Origin: Nitrospirota bacterium
Lineage (GTDB): Bacteria; Nitrospirota; UBA9217
Direction of reading: 5' to 3'
NCBI GenBank assembly: GCA_020052615.1
Contig: JAGVOT010000046.1
Coordinates: forward strand, 1 to 61,464
DNA: 61,464 nucleotides
The position numbers were made by a program, and so were the translations under genes. The notes under the pieces were generated by a model. The model was not told the origin of the DNA, did not search any database, and saw nothing but the letters and a program-made list of their open reading frames with translations. Numbering within the stretch: the first letter of the stretch is position 1; each line of letters opens with the position of its first letter. This document shows positions 2,510-60,586 of the stretch, piece after piece.

Positions 2510-4504
2510 ATGAAATTTTTTAAAAAACCTGACGAGTCAGCACAGGACCAGAACCTCGAGGACCTCGGGGTGCGCATCAAAGAGGCCAACCTTCCCTCCG
2601 CCGTAGAGAGGATCGCCGTCACGGAGCTGGATGTCCTTCGCAAGATCGGCCCCTCCCCTGCCGAGTTCACCATCGGCCTCACGTATATCGATTATCTTCT
2701 CTCGCTCCCCTGGAACCGGAAGACCGAGGACAACCTCGACATCGCCCAAGCCGAGAAGATCCTGAACGAGAAGCATTTCGGCCTGGAACGCATCAAGGAG
2801 CGCGTTCTGGAACACCTTGCGGTGAAGGTCCTCAGGATGAACCGGCGCGCCCGGATCCTCATCGTGGACGACGAAGAGATCGCCCGGAAGAACCTGTCCC
2901 ATGTGCTCGGCAAGGAACAGTATGATGTCGTCACCGCTCCCGACGCGGAGCAGGGGCTGGCGGAGCTGGCGTCAGCCGATTTCGATGTGGTGCTCACAGA
3001 CCTCCGGATGGGCAAGGTCGGCGGCATGGAGCTCCTGGAGACGGCGCGGCGGAAGCATCCCGAGACCCGGGTCATCATCGTGACCGGGTTTGCCACGGTC
3101 CCGTCGGCGATCGAGGCCATCAAAAAAGGCGCGTTCAACTACATCACCAAACCCTACAAGCTCGATGAGGTGCGCGACTCGGTGAAGCAGGCGCTGGAGA
3201 AGCGCTCGCTCGCTGCAAGCAGCCGGGGCACGGTGCTCTGCTTTGCCGGCCCTCCCGGCACGGGCAAGACCTCCCTCGGCCGGGCCATTGCCCTCGCGCT
3301 CGGCAGGAAGTTCGCACGCATCGCGCTCGGCGGGATGAAGGACGAAGCGGACATCCGGGGGCATCGGCGCACCTATGTGGGCGCCCGGCCGGGAAGGGTC
3401 ATCGAGGAGCTCCGGCGCGTCGAATCGGCGAATCCCGTCATCATGCTCGACGAGCTGGACAAGATCGGCCAGGACTTCAAGGGAGATCCCGCCTCTGCGC
3501 TCCTGGAGGTCCTGGATCCGGAGCAGAACCGCTCCTTCACGGACCACTACCTTGACGCCCCCTTCGACCTGTCGAGCATCATGTTCATCGTGACGGCAAA
3601 TGTGCTCGACACGGTCCCCGCCCCGCTTCGGGACCGCATGGAGGTCATTGAGTTCTCGGGCTATACCCAGGAGGAAAAGGCGCGCATCGCGGAACGCTAC
3701 CTGATCCCGAAGCAGGTCCGCGACAAGGGGCTCGATCCGGACCAGGTCGTGTTCGCCCCCGACGCCCTGGAGATGATCATCCATGAGCATACCCATGAAG
3801 CGGGCATTCGCAACCTGGAACGGAAGATCGCGACGATCTGCCGGAAGATCGCGAAGGAATCGCTTGGCCTGCAGGGACGCCGGAAGGTCGCCGTGGACAC
3901 GGCGTCGGTGGCGCGCTACCTGGGGCGGAGGAAATACCAGCACGATGTGGTGGAAGAACTCGACCGGGTGGGCGTGGCCACCGGCCTGGTGCGCACCGAG
4001 ACCGGCGGAGACATCATCTTCGTGGAAGCCGCCAAGATGAAGGGCAAAAAAGAGCTGATCATCACCGGCTCTCTCGGCGACGTGATGCGGGAGTCCGCCC
4101 AGGCGGCCCTTTCCTATATCCGGAGCAATGCCCTGGCCTACGGGTTGCCCGAGGACTTCTTCGAGAGCCAGGATATCCATATCCACGTCCCCTCGGGCGC
4201 TGTCCAGAAGGACGGCCCCTCGGCGGGCATTACCATCGCCGTGGCCGCGTTGTCCCTGCTGACCGGCCGGCCGGCCAGGCGGGAGGTGGCGCTCTCGGGA
4301 GAGATCACGCTCACGGGACGGGTCCTGCCGGTGGCGGGTGTCCGGGAAAAGGTGCTCGCCGCAAAGCGGGCGCGGGTCAAGACGATCGTCCTGCCCGCCA
4401 GGAACCGGTCGGATGTGGAGGAACTCCCCGAAACCATCCGCCAGGGCATCGACATCAAACTTGCGGAAACAGTGTCCGAAGTTGTGGACATCGTGCTGGT
4501 GTGA
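2510..4504 (+). CDS. Lon-family protease with an inserted response-regulator receiver domain
   Basis: This is a 664-aa ATP-dependent serine protease of unusual architecture. Residues ~20-112 match the helical segment that precedes the AAA+ core in LonA (YIDYLLSLPWN, HFGLERIKERVLEHLAV). Residues ~115-232 are a complete CheY-like receiver with acidic pair D120/D121, phospho-acceptor D164 (VVLTDLRM) and K214. The Lon core then resumes: Walker A GPPGTGKT (247-254), Walker B D314/E315, and a proteolytic domain with Ser571 (KDGPSAG) and Lys614 (VREKVLAA). The 43-residue Ser-Lys spacing equals that of the E. coli 679/722 dyad. The ~200-residue N-terminal substrate-recognition domain of LonA is absent. 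It heads a cluster with a histidine kinase and NtrC-type regulator, so phosphorylation probably controls degradation. All catalytic residues I can check are intact. Confidence 0.93.
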   Translation: MKFFKKPDESAQDQNLEDLGVRIKEANLPSAVERIAVTELDVLRKIGPSPAEFTIGLTYIDYLLSLPWNRKTEDNLDIAQAEKILNEKHFGLERIKERVLEHLAVKVLRMNRRARILIVDDEEIARKNLSHVLGKEQYDVVTAPDAEQGLAELASADFDVVLTDLRMGKVGGMELLETARRKHPETRVIIVTGFATVPSAIEAIKKGAFNYITKPYKLDEVRDSVKQALEKRSLAASSRGTVLCFAGPPGTGKTSLGRAIALALGRKFARIALGGMKDEADIRGHRRTYVGARPGRVIEELRRVESANPVIMLDELDKIGQDFKGDPASALLEVLDPEQNRSFTDHYLDAPFDLSSIMFIVTANVLDTVPAPLRDRMEVIEFSGYTQEEKARIAERYLIPKQVRDKGLDPDQVVFAPDALEMIIHEHTHEAGIRNLERKIATICRKIAKESLGLQGRRKVAVDTASVARYLGRRKYQHDVVEELDRVGVATGLVRTETGGDIIFVEAAKMKGKKELIITGSLGDVMRESAQAALSYIRSNALAYGLPEDFFESQDIHIHVPSGAVQKDGPSAGITIAVAALSLLTGRPARREVALSGEITLTGRVLPVAGVREKVLAAKRARVKTIVLPARNRSDVEELPETIRQGIDIKLAETVSEVVDIVLV

Positions 4505-18099: not shown

Positions 18100-18175
18100 C
18101 CGTCTTTGCGCGCAAGCGCGGCGATCTCGTCGTAAAATACGAGATTGCTTCGTCGCGATGCTCCTCGCAATGACA
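18100..18175. repeat. Palindromic repeat, TCATTGCGAGGAGC family, copy 2
   Basis: The right arm is GAGATTGCTTCGTCGCGATG followed by CTCCTCGCAATGAC; the left arm (..GCGGCGATCTCGTC) is degraded. It is followed at 18222-18252 by a second, unrelated hairpin (TCGGGT..AACCCGA). Both lie inside the second candidate cassette, between its gene and its attC-like site. Confidence 0.7.
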
Positions 18176-18904: not shown

Positions 18905-19041
18905 TGCATTGAAATCCCGGAAACAACAGATCGTCCCGCGCGATCGCTGAGCGGGTGTGAACTCGCTCGTTATGAAATAGAAAACGGCGGCCGATGAGGC
19001 CAACCTTCGCGTTTTCCTTCGATTGTCCTGCCCGTTCCGGG

Positions 19042-19794
19042 CTACTTCCCGAACACCTTCTTCAGCAGGTCCGTCACCCGGGCCACCGGGTCCTTCCTGA
19101 TCTTCTTCTCTTCCTGCCCCAGCAGGTAGAACAGCCCGTCCAGCGCCTTGCTCGTCACGTGGTGGTCAAGGTCCAGTGACCCGTCCCTGATGAGTTTGGT
19201 CTTTTTCGCCTTTTCGACCAGGTTCGCATAGGCCTTCGTGACTCCCACGGACATAACGGCCTGGGTCACGGTAGGCTTGAAGGACGCGTAGAGCTTTTCG
19301 TAGGTCTTCGACCGCATGTAGTCGGTTGCCGCGGTATCGCCTCCCTGCAGGATGTTGATGGCGTCGACGATGGTCATCTCCTTTACGGCGCCCACGAGGA
19401 TGTCCTTCGCCTGCGGCGCCGACTTCTCGGCGGCCCGGTTCATGGTCACGATGAACTCGTCCACCTGCTTGGAGAGACCGACCTTGCGGAGCGGCTTCTC
19501 GACCTTCTTGACCTTCTCGGGCAGCGGGATCTTGATGGCCGGGTTCCTGAGATACCCGTCTATCTGTGAACCGGCCTTCACGGCGTTCTGCGACCCGATC
19601 GCGAGGGCCTCCTTGAGGCCCGCGGCCACCGTGTCCTTGTCCAGCGTGGTTCCGGCCTGGCCGGCCGAAGCCGCCGGCTTGGCCTTGTCCTTGTTCAGCA
19701 GCGATTTTGCCTTGTCCAGCAGATCGGCCTGGGCCGGGGCACCGAGGCACAGGACAGCTGCAATGATCATGACCCCGAACGTCGTGCTGCGCAT
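19042..19794 (-). CDS. DUF4197 exported protein
   Basis: This 250-aa protein has a signal peptide (MRSTTFGVMIIAAVLCLGAPAQA, cleavage after AQA) and a helical mature part. LKEALAIGSQNAV, YLRNPAIKIPLPEKVKKVEK and VVDAINILQGGDTAATDYMRSKTYEKLY-type stretches match DUF4197. The family is periplasmic and of unknown function. A GGAGG-type site precedes the start. The C-terminus is intact. It is monocistronic, with an ATTCGTG repeat upstream. Confidence 0.85.
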   Translation of the reverse strand: MRSTTFGVMIIAAVLCLGAPAQADLLDKAKSLLNKDKAKPAASAGQAGTTLDKDTVAAGLKEALAIGSQNAVKAGSQIDGYLRNPAIKIPLPEKVKKVEKPLRKVGLSKQVDEFIVTMNRAAEKSAPQAKDILVGAVKEMTIVDAINILQGGDTAATDYMRSKTYEKLYASFKPTVTQAVMSVGVTKAYANLVEKAKKTKLIRDGSLDLDHHVTSKALDGLFYLLGQEEKKIRKDPVARVTDLLKKVFGK

Positions 19795-19839
19795 GGAACA
19801 CCTCCGTGAGAACTGTATTTAGGAACTGGATCAGCAGCC

Positions 19840-19970
19840 TTGAACGCGAATAACACGAATGGACGAATTTCACGAATAAAGGCTAACGGATATATTTCAG
19901 CAAAGAAATAGCTGCCCTGTTTTCATTCGTGTCATTCGGCAGTTATTCGTGACATTCGTGGCAAAGCTTT
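19840..19970. repeat. ATTCGTG repeat, copy A
   Basis: About 130 bp with inverted arms built from CACGAATGGACGAATTTCACGAATAA-like units on the left and TTCGTGTCATTCGGCAGTTATTCGTGACATTCG-like units on the right. It is nearly identical along its length to copy C at 23668-23792. Confidence 0.85.
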
Positions 19971-19997
19971 TTTCACCCTTGAACGGATTCAATAAGA

Positions 19998-20020
19998 ACG
20001 GCGGCCTTATCGGCCGCCGT
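19998..20020 (-). terminator. Hairpin terminator candidate after the cytochrome genes
   Basis: A perfect 9-bp stem, ACGGCGGCC / GGCCGCCGT with a 5-nt loop, lies 43 nt past the cytochrome b stop. On the minus strand it is followed by TTCTTATT, a weak U-rich tail. Confidence 0.5.
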
Positions 20021-20062
20021 CTGTTCACTACGTTGTCTGTTTGCCGGAAACTGCTCTCACAG

Positions 20063-20773
20063 CTACTTCTTCTTCTCCGAGCCCTTGCCGTAGAGATAGT
20101 CGAATTCAGCCGGATGATGGTGCTTGAACTGTTCGATCGGCATCTTGCCGGTCAGCCACAGCCAGTTCATGGGGAAATACTCCGACCGCAGGTGTTCATT
20201 GTAGAAGTGGATGATGAGGATGAACACGATGGCCAGGAGCGCCTCGTCGCTGTGCATGATAAACAGCACGTCCCATGCCCAGGCCAGGGACCATGTCGGG
20301 AACAGCGCCGACACCGTCACCGGGAACGCGAGGAAGAAGCCCGAGGTCCCGATGATGAACATGCCCCAGTACACCGCCCAGTAATCGAACTTCTGGAGGT
20401 ACGTGAACTTGCCGAAGTACGGCCGCTCCTTCCGGAGGCCGAGGAAGTACATGAAGTTGTGGACGAGGTCCACCACGTCCTTCGGCATCGGGATGATCGT
20501 GAGCCGGAGGTCCTTCTTCCGGGCCAGGTTCAGCAGGTAGAACTGGTGGTAGATGAAATCCAGCAGCATGAGGATGCCGGCGACGCGGTGGATGATCCCG
20601 GCGACCCTGGGGCCGCCCCAGATATTGATCCAGGCGCTTGACGGCTCGACGTAGGCGTACTTGAGGCCCCAGCCCGTAAAGGACAGGATCAGGAACGTCG
20701 TGAACATGATGATATGCTGGATGCGCGCGGAAAGGTCGAACCGCTGGATCTCCTGCGGAATGTTCTTATTCAT
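20063..20773 (-). CDS. Membrane cytochrome b subunit (FdnI/HydC-like)
   Basis: This 236-aa protein has four to five membrane spans and His residues placed as in diheme cytochrome b subunits of formate dehydrogenase or hydrogenase: RIQHIIMF, IIHRVAGILM, IMHSDEALLA and IHFYNEHLR. It should take electrons from the quinol pool, or return them, through two b hemes. Its start overlaps the end of the heptaheme cytochrome gene by 8 nt, so the two are a translationally coupled pair forming one quinol:cytochrome c module, by inference. Confidence 0.88.
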   Translation of the reverse strand: MNKNIPQEIQRFDLSARIQHIIMFTTFLILSFTGWGLKYAYVEPSSAWINIWGGPRVAGIIHRVAGILMLLDFIYHQFYLLNLARKKDLRLTIIPMPKDVVDLVHNFMYFLGLRKERPYFGKFTYLQKFDYWAVYWGMFIIGTSGFFLAFPVTVSALFPTWSLAWAWDVLFIMHSDEALLAIVFILIIHFYNEHLRSEYFPMNWLWLTGKMPIEQFKHHHPAEFDYLYGKGSEKKK

Positions 20774-21671
20774 GATGGTCCCCCCCCTTCCTGAACAGCC
20801 GGTCGCGAATGTCCGCGAAGATATCGAGAAGCACGTGCGTGATGATGAAGATGAACGTGCCCACGGTGAGCAGGATCAGGCCGATCTCTGTGAAGTGAGC
20901 GATCGGGTGGAGCGGCTTGTGGGTAATGGCGGCAACGAATTTCTCCGTTGCGCCCGGGTGGCACGCGCCGCAGGTCTTTTTCTTTGCCTCGACCGAGCCG
21001 ACGGGCGACTTCGGGTCCTTGGCGCTCACGATGGCGTGGGAGCCATGGCAGTTGGCGCAGGAAGGCGCTCCGCTGTGGCCGAGCTTCAGCTTCCTGCCGT
21101 GAAAGCTTTCCTTGTAGCGCTCCATCACGAGAGGAGAGAACCGGTACTTCTCGGTGATGTGCTTCTCTTCGTGGCATTTTCCGCAGCTCTCGACGACATT
21201 GAAGAGGTAGACCTTCGATGCCGTGCTCGGCCGCTTCTCGATGTAGTGGGGAACTCCGTGGCAGTTCGTGCAGACCGGACCGTCCGCGGACTTCTTGACG
21301 ATCACGTTCTGGCCGTGGATGCTTCCCTTGTACTCTTCGACCTTGTCGGGATGGCAGCCCGCGCACGCGGCCGCGGCAAGGGTGTCCTTGAGGCCCTTCG
21401 GCGCGATGGCGGCGGCGAACTCCCTGACCGCCTTGTCCGGCGCGGCGCCGCCCATGCCCTGGTGCTGGTCGCCCTTGGGCGCTGCGTGACACATGACGCA
21501 GTCAAATGAACCATGGACGGACTTCTCGTATTTCTCCTTGTTGACATTGACAGCCCCTTCCATCGATCCGTGACAGCTCAGGCACGTTGCCGAATCGGTC
21601 GCCGCGCCCGCAGTCGTGATCAGAAGGAAGGTGAACAGCAACGACAGCAATGCGTTCAGCCAAGTCCTCAT
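20766..21671 (-). CDS. Membrane-anchored heptaheme cytochrome c
   Basis: Start MRTWLNALLSLLFTFLLITT at 21671 has an AAAGGAG site and a signal peptide; the longer frame is ignored. The protein is 301 aa with seven CxxCH heme sites: CLSCH, CVMCH, CAGCH, CTNCH, CGKCH, CANCH and CGACH. Additional His residues after them could be distal ligands. A C-terminal membrane span (IGLILLTVGTFIFIITHVLL) anchors it on the periplasmic side. Combined with the overlapping cytochrome b it resembles CbcL-type multiheme quinol oxidases of metal-reducing bacteria, but split into two genes. Confidence 0.93.
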   Translation of the reverse strand: MRTWLNALLSLLFTFLLITTAGAATDSATCLSCHGSMEGAVNVNKEKYEKSVHGSFDCVMCHAAPKGDQHQGMGGAAPDKAVREFAAAIAPKGLKDTLAAAACAGCHPDKVEEYKGSIHGQNVIVKKSADGPVCTNCHGVPHYIEKRPSTASKVYLFNVVESCGKCHEEKHITEKYRFSPLVMERYKESFHGRKLKLGHSGAPSCANCHGSHAIVSAKDPKSPVGSVEAKKKTCGACHPGATEKFVAAITHKPLHPIAHFTEIGLILLTVGTFIFIITHVLLDIFADIRDRLFRKGGDHHE

Positions 21672-21866
21672 ACGTACTCCTTTCAAATGATTTTTATTGT
21701 GATGCGGAGCAGCCGCATGGGGATGCGCGGCTGCCTCCCCCGTTCGAATGATCGAGGCACAGCAAGTTGCAAGTTGAAACATTATCACAACAGGGAAATT
21801 TTGGCAAGCAGATTTTGCAAAGCTGGAGATTGAGAAATGAGCAGGGGCCTGCAGCCGTACAGAGGA

Positions 21867-22619
21867 TCAGGAGCGGGGATAAAAGACCTGCATCAGATAG
21901 AGTCCGCGTGCGGGGGCTGTTTTGCCTGCCGCGGTTCGGTCCCGGCCTCTGATCATGGCTTTCACCTCATCAGGAGAGAACCTGCCGAGCCCCACGTCAA
22001 TGAGCGTGCCGACGATGTTCCTGGCCATGTGCATCAGAAACGCGTCCGCTTCGAGAATGAACTCGATCTGGTCGCCCTTCTTCCCTATCATCAGGGTCCT
22101 GAGTTTCCTGACCGGCACCTTTGCGTTGCATGCCGAGCTCCGGAAGGCCGAGAAATCGTGCTTTCCGACCAGGTGCGCGGCCGCCCGCCGCATGTTCGCA
22201 AGGTTCAATTTCCGGTCGACATGCCAGGCGTGGTCACGGAGGAGCGCCGAGGGTGCGCTGCGGGCAAGGACGACATACCGGTATTGTTTGCCTCTGGCGC
22301 TGAAGCGCGCGTGAAAGTCCGCCCTCACCTCTTCCGAGGCGATGACCCTGATGTCCCTGGGAAGGAGCCGGTTCAGGGCCGGCGCCCAGGCCTCTCCGGG
22401 GATGGGGCTCTCCGTCGGAAAATTCGCCACGTGGCCCAGGGCATGGACGCCCGCGTCGGTCCTGCCGGACGAGACCGTCCTGATGTCCTCCTTCGTGAGC
22501 GCCTTGAGGGCCGTCTCGAGGGTCTCCTGGATGGTCGGACTGCCGCTTCCCTGCTGGGACTGCCAGCCGTGGTAGTTCGTTCCGTCGTATTCGAGGATGA
22601 GTTTTATGTTGCGGGACAT
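21867..22619 (-). CDS. truA: tRNA pseudouridine(38-40) synthase
   Basis: This 250-aa TruA makes pseudouridine at positions 38-40 of the tRNA anticodon stem. The catalytic Asp lies in SSGRTDAGVHALGHVA. Other family landmarks are LILEYDGTNYHGWQ at the N-terminus, FSARGKQYRYVV, HDFSAFR and FLMHMARNIVGTLIDVG. Length and ends are normal. It is monocistronic, with repeat copies upstream. Confidence 0.97.
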   Translation of the reverse strand: MSRNIKLILEYDGTNYHGWQSQQGSGSPTIQETLETALKALTKEDIRTVSSGRTDAGVHALGHVANFPTESPIPGEAWAPALNRLLPRDIRVIASEEVRADFHARFSARGKQYRYVVLARSAPSALLRDHAWHVDRKLNLANMRRAAAHLVGKHDFSAFRSSACNAKVPVRKLRTLMIGKKGDQIEFILEADAFLMHMARNIVGTLIDVGLGRFSPDEVKAMIRGRDRTAAGKTAPARGLYLMQVFYPRS

Positions 22620-22642
22620 TATGAAGACCTAAGAAAGAACCT

Positions 22643-22720
22643 TTACCACGAATGTCACGAATAAGTGCCGAATGACACGAATGAGGCCGGGAGCAGTCAT
22701 TTCGTTGTCAAAATATTCGT
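22643..22720. repeat. ATTCGTG repeat, copy B (partial, inverted)
   Basis: It starts CACGAATGTCACGAATAAGT and continues GCCGAATGACACGAATGAG. This is the reverse complement of the right arm of copy A; the other arm is reduced to a stray ATTCGTTAG. Confidence 0.75.
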
Positions 22721-22762
22721 TAGCCTGGCATATCGTAAACTTAGTTGTTAATGGTTCACCGC

Positions 22763-22842
22763 AGTCATTCCGGCACGTTCTAAGCCGGAATCCGGGGATT
22801 TAAACCTCTGGACCCCGGCTAAAATCATGCCGGGGTGACGAG
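22763..22842. repeat. CATTCCGGC..GCCGGGGTGACG double-hairpin repeat
   Basis: Two hairpins in a row: TTCCGGC/GCCGGAA and CCCCGGC/GCCGGGG. The element fills the rest of the truA-livF gap. Nothing else is visible up to 22925. Confidence 0.65.
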
Positions 22843-22924
22843 AAAAAGCGGCGAGATACCATCAGGAATTAGATTTACAGTGTACTAGTTTCGTTCAATC
22901 CGCAATCCGAAATCCGCAATCGTC

Positions 22925-23626
22925 TCACTCCCCAAGATACGCCTTTTTGATCCCCGGGTCGTTGGCAAGCTCCGACGCCGCTCCCTGCATCACGACCCGT
23001 CCGCTCTCCATCACGTATGCCCGCCTGGCAAGGCGCAGCGCCGCCTTGGCGTTCTGCTCAACGAGCAGGATGGTCGTCCCCTGGCTGTTGATCTCCTCGA
23101 TGATCTTGAAGATCCTGCTCACGATGATCGGCGCCAGTCCCAGAGACGGCTCGTCCAGGAGCAGGAGCTTCGGCCGGGACATGAGCGCCCTGCCGATGGC
23201 CAGCATCTGCTGTTCTCCGCCCGACAGGGTCCCGCCCAGCTGCCTGCTCCGGTCGGCGAGCGCCGGGAACATGGCGAACACGCGGTCCATGTCCTGCTGG
23301 AGCTTACCCTTATCACCCAGGAATGCGCCCATCTCCAGGTTCTCCCGCACCGTCATGCGGGACAGAATGCGCCTGCCTTCAGGCACCTGGGAAATGCCGA
23401 GGGCGACGATCGCGTGGGGAGGCATCCCCGATATCACGCGGTCATTGTACCGGATCGATCCGGTGGTGAGCCCCGCGACGCCGGAGATGGACATGAGCGT
23501 CGTGGACTTGCCGGCGCCGTTCGCGCCGATGAGCGCCACGATCTCGCCCTGCCGCACCTCGACGCTCACGCCCTTGAGCGCCGCGATCATGCCGTAGGAG
23601 ACGAATATGTCGGAAAGAGTAAGCAT
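22925..23626 (-). CDS. livF: Branched-chain amino acid ABC transporter ATPase LivF
   Basis: The start is set at ATG 23626 (233 aa); an in-frame GTG at 23641 is possible. Motifs: Walker A GANGAGKST, Q-loop SQVPEGRRIL, signature LSGGEQQML, Walker B LLLLDEPSLGL and switch His replaced by the family's LLVEQN. The VPEGRRI stretch and short length identify LivF rather than LivG. It energises uptake of branched-chain amino acids or related solutes. It lies downstream of livG but is separated from it by a repeat. Confidence 0.95.
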   Translation of the reverse strand: MLTLSDIFVSYGMIAALKGVSVEVRQGEIVALIGANGAGKSTTLMSISGVAGLTTGSIRYNDRVISGMPPHAIVALGISQVPEGRRILSRMTVRENLEMGAFLGDKGKLQQDMDRVFAMFPALADRSRQLGGTLSGGEQQMLAIGRALMSRPKLLLLDEPSLGLAPIIVSRIFKIIEEINSQGTTILLVEQNAKAALRLARRAYVMESGRVVMQGAASELANDPGIKKAYLGE

Positions 23627-23667
23627 AAGATCCGAGTCCACTAAACTTCAAGACAACAGGAACCTTG

Positions 23668-23792
23668 AACACGAATGGCACGAATGGACGAATTTCACGA
23701 ATAAAGGCTAACGGCTAATATTATGGCAAATAAATGACTACCCTGTTGTCATTCGTGTCATTCGGCAGTTATTCGTGACATTCGTGATAAAG
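23668..23792. repeat. ATTCGTG repeat, copy C
   Basis: Full-length copy, nearly identical to copy A including the non-palindromic middle (AATAAAGGCTAACGG..). It separates livG from livF. Confidence 0.85.
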
Positions 23793-23807
23793 TTAATTTC
23801 CTTTTCT

Positions 23808-24581
23808 TTAGGCGTGCTGCTGATGTTCCTTCCCCAGATATGCCTCGATCACCGCGGGGTCCTGCTGGATATCCTTCGGCGAGCCTTCGGCGATCTTCAC
23901 GCCGTGGTCGAGCACCACCACGCGGTCCGAAATGCCCATGACCACCTTCATATCGTGCTCGATCAGGATGATCGCGACGCCGTTGTCCCTGATCCTGCGA
24001 ACGAGGTCCATAAGCTCCTGCGTCTCATGGGGATTCATGCCCGCCGCGGGCTCGTCCAGCAGAAGGAGATGCGGCTCGGTCCCCAGGGCCCGTGCGATCT
24101 CGAGCCGGCGCTGGTCGCCGTAGGACAGGTTCGCCGCTACCGTATCGTGCTTCGCATCGAGCCCGGTGAACTTCAGGATGTCCATGGCACGGTAGCGCAT
24201 GTCGCGCTCTTCCTTCTTCACCTTCGAAGGACGGATGATGGCCCCGAAGAACCCCGCCTTCGTGCGGCAATGGGCGGCCACCATGACGTTCTCGAGGCAG
24301 GACATGCCGCTGAAGAGCCGGATGTTCTGGAAGGTGCGCGCCACGCCCAGGGCCGTGATGTCGTGGGGGGCCATCGTGGTCACGTCCCGGTCGGTGAAGG
24401 CCACCGTCCCCTTCGTGGGCCGGTAGATGCCGGTGATGCAGTTGAAGAACGTTGTCTTTCCGGCGCCGTTCGGTCCGATGATGCTCACGATGCGCTCGCG
24501 CTCGACGCGGATGTCGATGCCCTCGATGGCCTTGAGCCCGCCGAAGTGCTTGGTCAGGTTTTTGGTTTCCAGTAAGAGCAT
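23808..24581 (-). CDS. livG: Branched-chain amino acid ABC transporter ATPase LivG
   Basis: This is a 257-aa ATPase. Motifs: Walker A GPNGAGKTT, GVARTFQNIRLF (LivG-specific Q-loop region), LSYGDQRRLEIARAL (signature with a Tyr, usual for LivG), and LLLLDEPAAGMNPHE. It pairs with LivF. No strong ribosome site is visible before the ATG. ATTCGTG repeat units lie on both sides. Confidence 0.95.
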   Translation of the reverse strand: MLLLETKNLTKHFGGLKAIEGIDIRVERERIVSIIGPNGAGKTTFFNCITGIYRPTKGTVAFTDRDVTTMAPHDITALGVARTFQNIRLFSGMSCLENVMVAAHCRTKAGFFGAIIRPSKVKKEERDMRYRAMDILKFTGLDAKHDTVAANLSYGDQRRLEIARALGTEPHLLLLDEPAAGMNPHETQELMDLVRRIRDNGVAIILIEHDMKVVMGISDRVVVLDHGVKIAEGSPKDIQQDPAVIEAYLGKEHQQHA

Positions 24582-24603
24582 AGAAAGATCAAACTATTAA
24601 TCT

Positions 24604-25120
24604 GAACACGAATGGCACGAATGGACGAATTACACGAATAAAAACACATCAAAAAACCAATGCTATGGGGTAACGTCTAATTCACGATCCTTCGCACTTC
24701 GACCTTTTTCCCGCCGAAGTTTACAAGCAAACCAAGTTTCAATCCTGATGCTTTGAGATACGACAGTACCTGGCTTTCGAAGATCGAATTTAGTTCAGAT
24801 ACCGCCTTGAACTCCAGCAGGATAGTATCGTCCGCGACCGAATCCAGCCGACATTCTCCGATCTTGTCCCCTTTATACATGACAGCCACGATCCTTTGCC
24901 TATCTACCGATATGCCTTGACCGGTGAGCTCTCTATCCATGGCTTCTTCATATATCTTTTCTGAATATCCCGGACCAAGGACATTATGGACCTCATAGCA
25001 AGCCTTAACGATTCTGTAGGATGGGTCCTTAAAAATGATCCCATCAAGATCATTGTTTTTCTTTTCGTCTTCAGCCGTCATTCGTGACATTCGTCCATTC
25101 GTGTCATTCGTGTTATTCCT
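24604..25120. mobile_element. ATTCGTG repeat unit carrying a GxxExxY gene (copy D)
   Basis: The left end (CACGAATGGCACGAATGGAC..) is the same as the left ends of copies A and C. The right end is a run of ATTCGTG/ATTCGTCC units. The 40-50-bp middle of the other copies is replaced by a complete 137-codon gene. The unit sits between livG and livM. Calling it a mobile element is inference; no transposase is present. Confidence 0.5.
24677..25090 (-). CDS. GxxExxY protein (predicted PD-(D/E)XK nuclease fold)
   Basis: This 137-aa protein has the name-giving motif in GPGYSEKIYEEAM, preceded by RIVKACYEVHNVLG. The later segment CRLDSVADDTILLEFKAV has the D..ExK arrangement of PD-(D/E)XK nucleases, and QVLSYLKASGLKLGLLVNFG is the usual C-terminal end. 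The first residues (MSRMTAEDE) are encoded by the flanking repeat itself, and no separate ribosome site is seen. Function is unproven in the family. Its placement inside a repeat unit suggests it belongs to the repeat rather than to the liv genes. Confidence 0.85.
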   Translation of the reverse strand: MSRMTAEDEKKNNDLDGIIFKDPSYRIVKACYEVHNVLGPGYSEKIYEEAMDRELTGQGISVDRQRIVAVMYKGDKIGECRLDSVADDTILLEFKAVSELNSIFESQVLSYLKASGLKLGLLVNFGGKKVEVRRIVN

Positions 25121-25157
25121 TATGATATTGTTCTCTTCGTAATTTGCATTCTACTTC

Positions 25158-26309
25158 TCATTTTCCCTTCGCCGTTCCCAGCAGTCCCTGGGGACGGAAT
25201 ACCATCATCAGCACCAGCGCGACGCCGAAGCCGAGCATGCGGTAGTCGGCAAAATCGCGGAACACCTCGGGCAGCGTGACCAGGAGGAACGCCCCCAGGA
25301 TGATGCCGGGGATGCTCCCCATGCCGCCCAGGACCACCATGCACAGGATCATGACGGACTCGAAGAAGGTGAAGCTCTCGGGAGAGACGAAGGCCATCTT
25401 CGCCGCGAAGAACACGCCCGTCATCCCCGCCCAGGCGGACGCCACCACAAAGGCCAGCAGCTTCAGCCGGAAGGTATTGACGCCCATTGCCTCGGCGGCG
25501 ATCTCGTCCTCGCGGATCGCGATCCATGCCCTGCCGATGCGCGACACCATGAGCCGGTTCATGGCGAAGACCGTGACGATGGCGATGACCAGGATGAGAT
25601 AGTAGAAATCCAGGGGCGTGGAAAGGACCATGCCGCCGATGGCCGGCCTGCCGATGCGCGATATGCCGTTCGGGCCGCCGGTGACAGTGTCCGAATTGTT
25701 CAGAACGATGCGCGTGATCTCGCCCAGGCCCAGCGTGACGATGGCGAAGTAATCGCCGCGCAGCCTCAAGGTGGACAGCCCGATCAGGAGCGCCATGAAG
25801 GCCGAGGTCGCGGCGCCGACAACAAGCCCCGGCCAGAAGCCCAGCCCGAACCGCGTCGAAAGGATGGCATAACTGTACGCGCCGATCGCGTAGAACGCAA
25901 CGTAACCCAGGTTCAGGAGCCCCGTCTGCCCCACCATGATGTTGAGGCCGAGGGCAAGGACAGCATACATGCCCGTCAGGGTCAGCACGTCGCGGTAATA
26001 ATCGTTCTGGAAGAAGGGAATGACGAACAGGAGGGCTATAAAAACGGAAAGGAAGAGCGGCGAGCGGGTCCGGAAAAGAATGCTGTTGACGCTCGCTCGG
26101 AGGCCCGAGGCCTTGTAGAGGACCGCATTGACGATCCGCGAGGCGGCGTCGGTCTTCAAGAGGCCCCAGAGCGCGACGCCGGCCAGGATGACCATGACGA
26201 CCTGAAACGCGCGCCACGGCCCCGTAAAAGGGAAAGCAAGGGCTCCCGCCCACAGGGGGACCGCAAGAAAGGACAGGTACCGCGTTACAGTGTTCCGGGA
26301 TTCGCTCAT
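25158..26309 (-). CDS. livM: Branched-chain amino acid ABC transporter permease LivM
   Basis: This 383-aa polytopic protein has the LivM landmark region TLGLGEITRIVLNNSDTVTGGPNGISRIGRP and the following cytoplasmic loop RIGRAWIAIREDEIAAEAMGVN. About eight to ten membrane spans are visible, and the N-terminus is slightly longer than average. The other permease (LivH) and the binding protein (LivK) are not next to it, so the transporter must draw them from elsewhere or be incomplete. A promoter with its -10 box 11 nt before the ATG is seen. Confidence 0.94.
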   Translation of the reverse strand: MSESRNTVTRYLSFLAVPLWAGALAFPFTGPWRAFQVVMVILAGVALWGLLKTDAASRIVNAVLYKASGLRASVNSILFRTRSPLFLSVFIALLFVIPFFQNDYYRDVLTLTGMYAVLALGLNIMVGQTGLLNLGYVAFYAIGAYSYAILSTRFGLGFWPGLVVGAATSAFMALLIGLSTLRLRGDYFAIVTLGLGEITRIVLNNSDTVTGGPNGISRIGRPAIGGMVLSTPLDFYYLILVIAIVTVFAMNRLMVSRIGRAWIAIREDEIAAEAMGVNTFRLKLLAFVVASAWAGMTGVFFAAKMAFVSPESFTFFESVMILCMVVLGGMGSIPGIILGAFLLVTLPEVFRDFADYRMLGFGVALVLMMVFRPQGLLGTAKGK

Positions 26310-26320
26310 CGTGGAGCGAA

Positions 26321-26349
26321 ATTATCGCACAACCTCGGGGGGAATTCAA
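26321..26349 (-). promoter_or_regulatory. Candidate sigma70 promoter for livM
   Basis: Minus strand: TTGAAT, 17-nt spacer, GATAAT. The -10 box ends 11 nt before the ATG and no ribosome site fits in between, so the mRNA would have a leader of only a few bases. Confidence 0.5.
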
Positions 26350-26384
26350 GGAGTAGTTGGAAGGATGGTAGAAAAACGCGAGAC

Positions 26385-26738
26385 CTAGACGTCCCGCGGC
26401 TCGATGAGAAGCCGAAGCCCGTCCACGATCTGCCTGACGCGCGCCGGGGAAAGGCTGCCGATCTTCTCGGCACAGTCGGTTTTGTCCACGGTAACGACCT
26501 GGGATATGTTCACGACGCTGTCCTTTTTCAGATTCGCCTCGCCTTTTTTCAGCAGAACGTTGCCGGGAACATCGGCGCGTTTGAGGTTGGACGTCAGCGC
26601 GCAGACCACGATGGTGTTGATCCTGCTCTTGTTGAACACGTTGTTCTGGACAACCACATGAGGATGGCGGTATCGCGGTTCGGAGCCTTCGGGTTCTCCG
26701 AGGTCGATCCAGTAGATGTCGCCCTGCCTGATGCTCAC
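26385..26738 (-). CDS. MazF/PemK-family toxin
   Basis: This 117-aa protein begins RQGDIYWIDLGEPEGSE and continues HPHVVVQNNVFN, the typical first strands of MazF/PemK endoribonucleases. TIVVCALTSNL, DSVVNISQVVTVDK and a closing helix follow. The loop reads RYRHPHVV where most members have R-x-RP-x-VV, so substrate preference may differ. Its ATG overlaps the antitoxin stop by 4 nt. It should be an mRNA-cleaving toxin neutralised by the upstream partner. Confidence 0.92.
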   Translation of the reverse strand: MSIRQGDIYWIDLGEPEGSEPRYRHPHVVVQNNVFNKSRINTIVVCALTSNLKRADVPGNVLLKKGEANLKKDSVVNISQVVTVDKTDCAEKIGSLSPARVRQIVDGLRLLIEPRDV

Positions 26739-26983
26739 GAACGTTCCTTCAGGACGGTCCTGCTATACCGTTTTTTACTTTTCTGCCTGACGCTATACTC
26801 TTCGGCAGTTTCGGCGGCCGCGGATGCCTCATTGATCGCATCAAGCAGTTTCCCGGACTTCCTTTTCTCCAGGTATTCCCGCACCGCAGTGACGAACACT
26901 TCGCTCCGTGATGAGCGGCGTTCCTTCGCGACCTTCTCTATCTCCTTGAACATTTCATCAGGAACGGATATGGCTGTTTTCAT
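26735..26983 (-). CDS. Ribbon-helix-helix antitoxin
   Basis: Start MKTAISVPDEMFKEIEKVAK at 26983 (82 aa). The first ~45 residues are a ribbon-helix-helix DNA-binding domain (AISVPDEMFKEIEKVAKERR, SRSEVFVTAVREYL). The C-terminal half is charged and presumably wraps the toxin. The longer upstream frame is rejected because a consensus promoter lies there. The gene ends in a 4-nt overlap with the toxin. The operon is probably autoregulated through the palindrome described next. Confidence 0.9.
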   Translation of the reverse strand: MKTAISVPDEMFKEIEKVAKERRSSRSEVFVTAVREYLEKRKSGKLLDAINEASAAAETAEEYSVRQKSKKRYSRTVLKERS

Positions 26984-26989
26984 GAGATG

Positions 26990-27018
26990 AGTATACCATG
27001 CGGTTATACCCATGTCAA
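26990..27018 (-). promoter_or_regulatory. Consensus sigma70 promoter and operator of the toxin-antitoxin operon
   Basis: Minus strand: TTGACA (27013-27018), 17-nt spacer, TATACT (26990-26995). The -10 box ends 6 nt before the antitoxin ATG, so transcription should start at or next to the A of the ATG. The palindrome GTATA-N9-TATAC (26991-27009) covers the spacer and -10 box, a natural site for RHH autorepression. Confidence 0.7.
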
Positions 27019-32353: not shown

Positions 32354-32581
32354 TTAGTAAGTTATGAATCAAAATCTACCCAAAATGGCAAGAATATTTC
32401 TCGCAAAGCGCGCAGAGGTCGCAAAGAAAGGCCAAAGCTCAGGCCTTTAATTTACAACAAAAGTCTCGCCAGCTTTTCTTAGCGTACTTTGCGAGCTCGC
32501 CTAGAGGCGCCTACTTCTGGTTGCGAGAGACGCCTTTGTATTTTGTCTTTTGGTTCCGGCTCGTCCAGGTTAGGGTGCGTT
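32354..32581. repeat. Long repeat, TTAGTAAGTTA..TTAGGG family, copy 1
   Basis: About 225 bp matching 35283-35473. Internal inverted arms are CTCGCAAAGCGCGCAGAGGT and ACTTTGCGAGC. Relative to copy 2 it has an extra ~25 bp around CTAGAGGCGCCTACTTCT, a nested short repeat related to those at 37257 and 60528. With the next repeat it fills the 519-base gap between the lipoprotein and the transglutaminase gene. Confidence 0.8.
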
Positions 32582-32605: not shown

Positions 32606-32689
32606 GTCATTGCGAGCGACCGAAGGGAGCGCGGCAATCTCGTCTCTGGATACGAGATTGCTTCGTCGCTCTGCTCCTCGCAATGACGG
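32606..32689. repeat. Palindromic repeat, TCATTGCGAGGAGC family, copy 3
   Basis: This is the best-preserved copy in the window: TGTCATTGCGAGCGACCGAA on the left and CTGCTCCTCGCAATGACG on the right, around GGCAATCTCG/CGAGATTGC. Confidence 0.85.
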
Positions 32690-34252: not shown

Positions 34253-34394
34253 TACCACAGAGACACAGAGGCACAGAGAGAACCAATGACGAGAACGTTG
34301 CTCATGATAAATCTTTTCTCCGTGTCTCATGCCTTTAAAACAAATCTATTGTTTCCCGTTTCCTCTGTGTTCTCTGTGCCTCTGTGGTAAAAAT
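34253..34394. repeat. CACAGAGGCACAGAGA inverted repeat
   Basis: A 142-bp element with left arm TACCACAGAGACACAGAGGC and right arm TTCTCTGTGCCTCTGTGGTA. Degenerate relatives occur near 6250 and 58960. The gap holds nothing else. Confidence 0.8.
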
Positions 34395-35282: not shown

Positions 35283-35473
35283 TTAGTAAGTTACGAATCA
35301 AAATCTACCCAAAACGGCAAGAATATTTCTCGCAAAGCGCGCAAAGGTCGCAAAGAAAGTCCAAAACTTTAGCCGCTTTTATTTGAAAACAAAAACCTCG
35401 TCTGCTTTTCTTTGTGTACTTTGCGAGCTTTGCGAGAGACGCCCTTAGATTTTCCGGCTTGTCCGGGTTAGGG
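35283..35473. repeat. Long repeat, TTAGTAAGTTA..TTAGGG family, copy 2
   Basis: About 190 bp, the shorter twin of 32354-32581. Arms are CTCGCAAAGCGCGCAAAGGT and CTTTGCGAGCTTTGCGAGA. It occupies the gap before the SulP gene and ends 20 nt before its ATG. Confidence 0.85.
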
Positions 35474-35492: not shown

Positions 35493-37313
35493 ATGCAGAT
35501 CAAGGACTATCTTCCTTTTCTTCGCTGGTGGCCGACGGTCACGCGGCGCACCCTGAAGGCCGATCTCATCGCCGGGATCACCGGCGCGGTAATTGTGCTG
35601 CCCCAGGGCGTCGCTTTCTCCGTCATCGCGGGCCTTCCACCGGAATACGGCCTCTACTCGGCGATCGTCCCCGCGATCATCGCGGCATTGCTTGGCTCTT
35701 CCTACCACCTCATATCGGGTCCCACTACCGCAATATCCATTGTCATTTTCACCACCATCAGCCCGCTGGTCGAACCGGGCAGCGCCCACTACATCCAGAT
35801 GGTGCTGACCCTTACGTTTCTCGCCGGACTGTTCCAGTTCGGCCTGGGCCTGGCCCGGCTCGGAGCGCTGGTCAATTTCGTGTCCCACTCCGTCGTGGTC
35901 GGGTTCACCACCGGAGCCGCGGTCCTGATCGCGACCAGCCAGCTCAGCGGTTTCTTCGGCGTCGCCGGTTCGAAACGCCACGCCTTTATCCACGTGTGGG
36001 AAGACCTGTTCAACGAGCTGCCACGAACCAATCCCTACGTGGCGGCCATTGCCGTCACGTCGCTGATCACCGCGGTCCTGTTCAGACGATATTATCCTCG
36101 TCTTCCGGGCATGCTCTTCGCCATGATCATTGGCAGCGTGCTTGCCTCGGTACTGAACGCGCAGGAGCGCGGCGTACGGCTCATCGGTTCCCTCCCGGGC
36201 CATCTGCCGCCCCTGTCCGTTCCCGACCTATCAACCTCCTCGGTGCGGCAACTGGCCCCGGCTGCGCTTGCCGTTGCCATGCTCGGCCTCGCCGAAGCGG
36301 TGTCCATCGCCCGGGCGGTCGCCACGCGCTCTCATCAGCGCATCGACAGCAACCAGGAATTCATCGGCCAGGGACTTTCCAACATCATCGGCAGTTTTTT
36401 TTCGAGCTACGCGGCGTCGGGCTCATTCACCCGCACGGGCGTGAACTACGAGTCCGGCGCGAAAACGCCGATGGCCGCCGTCTTTGCGGCGCTGTCGCTT
36501 TCGGCGATCCTGCTGCTCATCGCGCCGCTCACCGCCTATCTTCCCCTTGCCTCCATGGCGGGAGTGCTGCTGGTCGTTGCGTACGGCCTCATCGACTTCC
36601 ACCATATCCGCACCATCGTCCGGACAAGCACCCCCGAGGCCGCAGTGCTCGCCGTGACCTTCCTGGCGACGCTCCTGGTCGAACTGGAATTCGCGATATA
36701 CGTGGGCGTCATTCTCTCCCTCCTGCTTTACCTCAACCGGACGTCCCATCCGCACTTCATCACCCTCGCTCCGGACCCGGACAGCGACCGGCGGAGCTTC
36801 ATCAATATCACAAGGATGCCGGTGGATGAATGCCCCCAGCTCAAGGTCATTCGGATCGACGGCTCGCTGTTCTTCGGGGCCGTGGACCATTTTGCCCAGG
36901 AACTGCGAAACCTGACCAGGAACACCCCCGAACAGGCGCATATCCTGATCGTCGGGAGCGGCATCAATTTCATCGATGTTGCCGGATGCGAGGCGCTTGC
37001 CAATGAGGCGCATCGCCTCCATGTGAACGGTAGACAATTGTACCTCTGCACGCTGAAAAGCGAGGTCCTGAACACGCTGCGGCGGGGCGGCTATCTCGAG
37101 CGCATCGGGGAGAAGAACATCTTCTCCTCCAAGCTTCAAGCGATCGACCGGATCGTTCCGCGCCTCGACCCGGAGCGATGCCGCGTCTGCACGGTCCGGG
37201 TATTCCATGAGTGCGACGGAATGCCGGGGGCGAAAAAACTCGACACGGAGCCAAAAGTAGGCGCTTCTAAGCGACACGGGAACACGGGGAAAATACAGGG
37301 GCAGGGCCCCTGA
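35493..37313 (+). CDS. SulP-family anion transporter with STAS domain
   Basis: This 606-aa protein has an N-terminal transport domain of 10-14 spans with SulP landmarks: ADLIAGITGAVIVLPQGVAF, PPEYGLYSAIVPAI, GPTTAISIVIF, and NQEFIGQGLSNIIGSFFSSY followed by ASGSFTRTGVNYESGAKTP. The C-terminal STAS domain (~445-560) has SGINFIDVAGCEAL. A Cys cluster (CRVCTVRVFHEC) follows. The last ~25 residues are encoded by a short intergenic repeat, so the native C-terminus may have been extended. It should carry sulfate, bicarbonate or another anion; specificity cannot be read. Confidence 0.93.
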   Translation: MQIKDYLPFLRWWPTVTRRTLKADLIAGITGAVIVLPQGVAFSVIAGLPPEYGLYSAIVPAIIAALLGSSYHLISGPTTAISIVIFTTISPLVEPGSAHYIQMVLTLTFLAGLFQFGLGLARLGALVNFVSHSVVVGFTTGAAVLIATSQLSGFFGVAGSKRHAFIHVWEDLFNELPRTNPYVAAIAVTSLITAVLFRRYYPRLPGMLFAMIIGSVLASVLNAQERGVRLIGSLPGHLPPLSVPDLSTSSVRQLAPAALAVAMLGLAEAVSIARAVATRSHQRIDSNQEFIGQGLSNIIGSFFSSYAASGSFTRTGVNYESGAKTPMAAVFAALSLSAILLLIAPLTAYLPLASMAGVLLVVAYGLIDFHHIRTIVRTSTPEAAVLAVTFLATLLVELEFAIYVGVILSLLLYLNRTSHPHFITLAPDPDSDRRSFINITRMPVDECPQLKVIRIDGSLFFGAVDHFAQELRNLTRNTPEQAHILIVGSGINFIDVAGCEALANEAHRLHVNGRQLYLCTLKSEVLNTLRRGGYLERIGEKNIFSSKLQAIDRIVPRLDPERCRVCTVRVFHECDGMPGAKKLDTEPKVGASKRHGNTGKIQGQGP

Positions 37314-51540: not shown

Positions 51541-51658
51541 AACACGAATGCCACGAATGGACGAATAGCACGAATAACTACGAACAACTAATAAAAGAGC
51601 TCAACGTTCTTGTTCATTCGTGACATTCGGCAGTTATTCGTGTAATTCGTGGTAAGGT
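51541..51658. repeat. ATTCGTG repeat, copy E
   Basis: Left arm CACGAATGCCACGAATGGAC and right arm TTCGTGACATTCGGCAGTTA with TTCGTGTAATTCGTGG. It fills most of the gap after lptG; the next 150 bases contain only a Lys/Arg-rich 19-codon frame (51698) that I do not call. Confidence 0.85.
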
Positions 51659-52950: not shown

Positions 52951-53086
52951 CACGAATTGCACGAATAACTGCACGAATGACACGAATGAGGGCAAGACAG
53001 GGAGTTGTAATAAATCAGAAAACAACCTGTCTCGTCTTTATTCGTGCCCATTCGTCCTAATTCGTGACATTCGTGGTAAAGATGTT
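52951..53086. repeat. ATTCGTG repeat, copy F
   Basis: Left arm CACGAATTGCACGAATAACT..GACACGAATGAG, right arm TTTATTCGTGCCCATTCGTC..TTCGTGACATTCGTGG. It fills the gap before coaE. Confidence 0.85.
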
Positions 53087-60513: not shown

Positions 60514-60586
60514 GACACGGGAACAAGAGTAGGCGCTTCTGAGCGACGGGGGGACAGGCGGCACGGGGAGACGGGAGGTGAGCAAG

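Follow-up and report, generated by a model that had tools for sequence, protein, structure and literature searches.

GxxExxY nuclease-like genes are enclosed by inverted arrays of a degenerate heptamer and may form REP/RAYT-like units

Background

The window analysed here is a stretch of 61,464 nucleotides from a Nitrospirota bacterium (contig JAGVOT010000046.1). In it, a short gene of the GxxExxY family lies between two inverted arrays of the heptamer CACGAAT/ATTCGTG, and gene-less copies of the same repeat occur elsewhere in the window. This raises the questions of whether gene and arrays form one unit, whether the encoded protein acts on the arrays, and how the gene-less copies arose. The GxxExxY family (TIGR04256) is widespread and has no assigned function. 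The open-access literature that we searched holds nothing on the function of GxxExxY, on its link to repeats or on these repeat words. A first-pass annotation of the window had proposed a non-classical mobile element whose gene-less copies are internally deleted derivatives of the gene-bearing unit.

A nuclease-like gene between inverted arrays

The features of the locus are listed in Table 1. The left array (AACACGAATGGCACGAATGGACGAATTACACGAAT) and the right array (ATTCGTGACATTCGTCCATTCGTGTCATTCGTGTT) enclose the gene from 24605 to 25114 and are 91% complementary to each other. Both the start codon (25088-25090) and M4, another in-frame ATG, lie within or adjoin the innermost units of the right array, so the first-pass annotation was right to derive the first codons from the repeat. 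It had also equated the left end of the unit with those of solo elements A (19840) and C (23668); the left array differs from C by one base over about 37 and is a close match to A. The right end is built from CACGAAT-type units as well, with the same 2-1-2 spacing as the left. In this it is unlike the right arms of solos A, C and the solo at 51543, which are asymmetric (ATTCGTGTCATTCGGCAGTTATTCGTGACATTCGTG). The genes on either side code for proteins, apparently of ABC transport. The repeat far exceeds chance expectation in both the window and the genome: CACGAATNNCACGAAT with up to two mismatches has 24 matches in the window (mean of 0.27 in shuffles), and its exact form occurs 43 times in the 3.99-Mb genome, against none for the reversed pattern.

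Table 1. Coordinates of the GxxExxY unit and of gene-less elements in the window
Feature	Position	Strand	Remarks
Left array	24605..24639	+	4 units, spacers 2-1-2 (CACGAAT GG CACGAAT G GACGAAT TA CACGAAT)
GxxExxY gene (TIGR04256/PF13366)	24677..25090	-	137 aa; predicted RecB/Cas4-type PD-(D/E)XK nuclease; D83, E93-x-K95, Q107xxxY111 present
Right array	25080..25114	-	Mirror spacing 2-1-2; contains GxxExxY start codon
Solo A, CACGAAT dialect	19845..19960	.	84-90% identical to C, loop included
Copy B, half element	22647..22682	+	Single arm only
Solo C, CACGAAT dialect	23670..23786	.	DNA hairpin z=-5.9
Solo, CGCAAAG/CGCAGAG dialect	32402..32493	.	23-bp REP-like insert in right arm (32498-32520)
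Solo, CACAGAG dialect	34256..34386	.	Orthologous site in G001 holds a CACGAAT-dialect element
Solo, CGCAAAG dialect	35331..35434	.	Absent from the orthologous site in G001
Solo E, CACGAAT dialect	51543..51651	.	
Solo F, CACGAAT dialect	52951..53075	.	

The window protein is a full-length member of TIGR04256 (128 bits against a cut-off of 35, E=2.2e-37) and matches PF13366 (PDDEXK_3; 122.9 bits against a cut-off of 22, E=1.2e-35), which bears out the annotation of a 137-codon nuclease-like gene inside the repeat unit. PDDEXK_3 was the sole domain matched, and no Y1/HUH tyrosine transposase domain was found in the protein. When an AlphaFold2 prediction of the GxxExxY protein (pLDDT 95) was compared with solved structures in Foldseek, the top matches were MGME1, Cas4 SSO0001, lambda exonuclease and AddAB; by sequence, no credible relative of solved structure was found. 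Across alignments A1 and A2, the D, E-x-K and QxxxY residues vary little or not at all. The prediction, made with high confidence, is of a RecB/Cas4/lambda-exonuclease fold of minimal size whose active site is intact. Exonucleases of the RecB/Cas4 type act on DNA ends or single strands, and by analogy the GxxExxY protein may do the same. It shares the PD-(D/E)XK core and the QxxxY motif with Cas4, MGME1, lambda exonuclease and the AddB nuclease domain, its best fold matches, but differs from them in its low identity (about 15%), its minimal size and in not belonging to a CRISPR, recombination or mitochondrial system here. The window protein matched none of the PADLOC defence models, and one relative gave a weak match to Cas4 (E=0.003).

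One degenerate word, many dialects

The source genome has eight GxxExxY loci; its arrays were counted by pattern searches and in 827 kb of stretches. The ATTCGTG dialect occurs at the window locus only; the other seven are flanked by inverted repeats in other words (CACAGAG, CGCAAAG, CGCGAAG, CACGGAT, CGCAGAT, CACGAAG and others). Nearly all of the flank words fit the general word C[AG]C[AG][AG]A[GT] (CRCRRAK), which is repeated at 8-11 bp and of which ATTCGTG is one dialect. The first-pass annotation had suggested looking for an enrichment of GxxExxY genes within ATTCGTG copies, and had counted GxxExxY genes lacking such ends as evidence against its model. Taken literally, seven of the eight genes do lack them; in substance the architecture is the same, in other dialects. 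Genome-wide there are 245 CRCRRAKNNCRCRRAK unit pairs, compared with 5 for a reversed control.

The same architecture extends well beyond this genome. We collected 80 GxxExxY loci from genome contigs that span about 20 phyla, archaeal ones among them; this set consists of the top matches to a single GxxExxY subgroup, and further relatives beyond the 80 bring in other GxxExxY subgroups. At 52 of the 80 loci, and in 12 of 1640 controls, an inverted repeat no more than 250 bp from the gene scored above the 99th percentile of same-locus controls. By unit-chain score, inward-facing CRCRRAK arrays stand on both sides of the gene at 86 of 112 loci (about 20 phyla), against 10 of 112 for the reverse polarity, and in a stricter scan of 82 loci the dominant class was up+|dn- (43 loci, versus one up-|dn+). 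Each arm holds 2-4 copies of the word. Of 76 scorable elements, 61 have the same pattern of spacer lengths in their two arms, whereas shuffled arms give a mean of 14 and a maximum of 26. The spacer sequences themselves are weakly mirrored between arms (those of 1 and 4 nt not at all), and unit order is mirrored weakly and not significantly; simple selection for a hairpin was rejected on these grounds. For a family without an assigned function, the physical link to arrays of matched spacing provides a direct candidate substrate, and it offers an origin for the abundant intergenic palindromes (CACAGAG, CGCAAAG, CACGAAT and similar words) of environmental genomes.

Array form follows the protein tree

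Array spacing and dialect follow the phylogeny of the GxxExxY protein. A quick maximum-likelihood tree was made of 111 proteins; on it, the spacing vector changes 26 times, compared with 36 times when shuffled (minimum 30); unit dialect and last base also change less often than in shuffles. When shuffling was confined within phyla, the values observed for spacing and for word positions 4-5 were reached by none of 400 shuffles, and that for position 2 by 0.75%. Among protein pairs that cross phyla, 51% share their spacing at 65-80% identity, compared with about 21% at 45-65%. In 61 related genomes, GxxExxY is present in 15 of the 17 that are array-rich and in 4 of the 44 that are array-poor (Fisher p=6e-9, uncorrected for kinship; the counts, drawn from two or three clades, are not independent). 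Arrays are present without a detected GxxExxY gene in G018 and G027. The sister species G001 and G002 have 26 and 7 matches to the CACGAAT pattern, respectively, and no close relative of the window protein.

Gene-less elements and turnover of sites

According to the first-pass annotation, the gene occupies the place of the 40-50 bp middle of the solos, which would be internally deleted derivatives of the unit. The loops do not bear this out. Among 80 solos from two genomes, no loop contained a convincing piece of a GxxExxY gene interior (there was one 14-nt match near an arm), and the middles of the window solos are not gene remnants. Nor do the loops, for the most part, match each other: 11 of the 80 resemble another loop, and the clear pairs among 18 CACGAAT loops compared are A with C and 51543 with C81. 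Since the loops are unmatched, and since G001 and G002 carry CACGAAT arrays but lack a close relative of the protein, a derivation of the solos from the window gene by internal deletion is unsupported. What stands of the proposed mobile element is a unit of palindromic ends around a predicted PD-(D/E)XK protein. Copies E and F are empty units as described, while B is a half element.

Comparison of sites points to movement. Within the 827 kb of the source genome, one CACGGAG palindrome has a CGCAAAG palindrome inserted in its loop (G000:C113:66700-67037). In G001, which is 92% identical around the window locus, most of the orthologous intergenic array sites examined have a different element or none. 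The orthologue of the window locus carries no array in G002 and a gene-less CGCAGAG palindrome in G001. Sites thus vary between relatives; fixation of copies at the same positions in all relatives would have spoken against the first-pass model. The nested insertion together with the turnover at orthologous intergenic sites indicates mobility. Several GxxExxY copies are decayed by stops or frameshifts, which fits a selfish gene. No excess of direct repeats was found at element edges, where the age of the insertions limits power, and no clean empty site was found among the sites compared. Elements that seemed to interrupt genes were discounted, because the joined flanks showed just adjacent genes in operons. 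Two cases of apparent duplication of 25-31 bp were examined, and that at L172 proved to be a tandem duplication including an arm. In a single case (L159, Ramlibacter), a GxxExxY element is flanked by an imperfect direct repeat of 25 bp that duplicates the start of trpG (about 2910-2940 and 3415-3440), possibly a target duplication. Carriage by phages was rejected: GxxExxY is absent from 50,697 phage records, and only 8 plasmid records have it.

Relation to known elements

The layout most resembles that of REP/RAYT (REPIN) systems (PMC2817692, PMC3116915). In both, a nuclease gene is flanked by inverted copies of a palindromic repeat, the same repeat is dispersed intergenically as gene-less units, repeat and protein co-vary (here in spacing and dialect against the tree), and there is no regular target duplication. 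The enzyme differs, being a Y1/HUH tyrosine transposase in RAYTs and a predicted PD-(D/E)XK nuclease in the GxxExxY unit. REPs consist of a GTAG head and one short palindrome, whereas GxxExxY arms consist of 2-4 spaced heptamers, and the GxxExxY system differs further in having several genes of different dialect per genome. A Y1 transposase acting as mobiliser was considered and set aside, as RAYT-type Y1 genes of the same family do not lie near the arrays (0.085 vs 0.133 arms/kb).

Intervening sequences (IVSs) of 23S rRNA with an S23 ORF (PMC4990558) are also alike in being about 430-470 bp long, with inverted ends around one small ORF and heptamer repeats beside the start codon, and they are thought to be selfish. 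However, they are inserted in rRNA and excised by RNase III, and S23 is a four-helix bundle rather than a nuclease; the window ORF encodes GxxExxY and lies between protein-coding genes, not inside a 23S rRNA helix. The heptameric arrays of Xanthomonas and Nostoc (GGGAATC; PMC4692102) and of Beggiatoaceae (TAACTGA; PMC4679880) are likewise intergenic, with convergent (inverted) pairs reported in Xanthomonas (PMC4692102). They differ in their sequence and in their continuous period of 7; the parts of these accounts that we consulted report no enclosed nuclease gene and propose other functions (G-quadruplex, translation). Classical TIR transposons and MITEs (DDE) differ in having target site duplications of fixed length, which were not seen here, although old insertions limit the power of that comparison, and in having solos that are internal deletions of a full element. 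The layout is thus REP/RAYT-like, but the unit has neither a Y1/HUH enzyme, nor the hallmarks of DDE elements and MITEs, nor the setting of an rRNA IVS, and we assign it to no known family.

How the unit might move

We tentatively favour, at a little less than even probability, the reading that gene and inverted arrays belong together as a single selfish unit resembling REP/RAYT, in which an unrelated PD-(D/E)XK nuclease would act on the arrays. The protein would bind the repeated heptamers, probably on arms folded as a hairpin in single-stranded DNA, and would nick or trim at the outer ends (TTNAC|CRCRRAK). Once released or copied, the hairpin could be joined to another intergenic site by the replication or repair machinery of the host, and no regular duplication of the target would result. 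On this reading the solos would be non-autonomous and mobilised in trans, with loops that are not deleted forms of the gene; the solos may also be relics. Somewhat more tentatively, GxxExxY proteins may supply the nuclease for a class of mobile elements that spans phyla and has not been described before. The enzyme would be RecB/Cas4-like, in place of a transposase, tyrosine nuclease or reverse transcriptase; it would recognise a short degenerate word in inverted arrays and spread palindromes with and without the gene. If the nuclease does move the arrays, a REP/RAYT-like system would have arisen independently around the PD-(D/E)XK fold.

The strongest alternative, which we regard as unlikely though it deserves weight, is that the arrays are mobile or self-propagating by other machinery (replication slippage, single-strand repair or another enzyme) and that the genes are carried in their loops. 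It draws on other enclosed genes. S23 four-helix-bundle genes (PF05635; L244-L273) of the same genomes are bracketed by inverted arrays, mostly of continuous period 7 (median inverted-repeat score 19 vs 9), in words such as GTAGACA, AGGGTCC, GTACCAA and GAGTTCG and with a grammar unlike that of GxxExxY. To our knowledge, the S23 four-helix bundle has no enzymatic activity. An enclosed protein can therefore be something other than the enzyme that mobilises the arrays, and the case for GxxExxY as mobiliser is weaker for it. The IVS of Coxiella, with its terminal inverted repeats, tandem heptamers and S23 ORF (PMC4990558), looks like a member of this S23/period-7 class, which may be parallel to the GxxExxY class with a grammar of its own and may explain the origin of rRNA intervening sequences. 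CGCGAAG arrays also surround an unrelated 132-aa ORF without a Pfam match (G000:C113:114979-115457), at a separation close to that of the GxxExxY unit. Most elements, moreover, are gene-less with unique loops, and solos persist without a cognate gene. Against carriage as a passenger, CRCRRAK arrays accompany GxxExxY and not S23 (arms at 3 of 30 loci) or Y1 transposases, spacing and dialect track the GxxExxY tree, and array abundance tracks the presence of the gene.

It is improbable that the element works at the RNA level, as a transcribed hairpin around the gene that GxxExxY acts on or is regulated by, in the manner of the RNase III-cut IVS that encodes S23. The Coxiella parallel, the strong fold of the window element as RNA (z=-6.2) and the start codon within the array would suit such a hairpin. 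The arms, however, have mismatched spacers and no significant mirroring of unit order, the predicted fold is that of DNA exonucleases, the elements are intergenic, and no Rfam family scored above its gathering threshold in window positions 19000-27000. More improbable still is that the arrays are host-kept, operator- or origin-like sites regulating a resident nuclease gene (of repair or defence, for example), with solos as ordinary regulatory sites: the iterated sites of fixed spacing and polarity resemble iterons and equal arm spacing fits an oligomer, but sister species differ in element content at most of their orthologous intergenic sites, solos are numerous, genes are decaying and the window protein matches no defence family.

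Additional repeats

Three further kinds of repeat were seen. A 23-bp REP-like sequence (CCAAAAGTAGGCGCTTCTAAGCG) occurs in the window at 37251-37273 (+), 32498-32520 (-) and 60523-60545 (+); its pattern has 24 copies genome-wide and 28 in G001. Of 26 sites inspected, nearly all have it inside or next to an array. At 15 of these, in several dialects, its removal restores an intact heptamer split after the fifth base (CRCRR^AK), without duplication. It thus appears to be a second element, aimed at a single exact position in the arrays. A 60-bp dispersed repeat (ATTGCGAGGAGC..., other strand) at 18115-18174 and 32628-32687 (87% identical) belongs to a different intergenic family. Other direct arrays of period 7 (GTTCAAA, ATCCGCA) are intergenic too, for example at window positions 22897-22925 and at g1C49:38868-38965 in G001, and show turnover between species.
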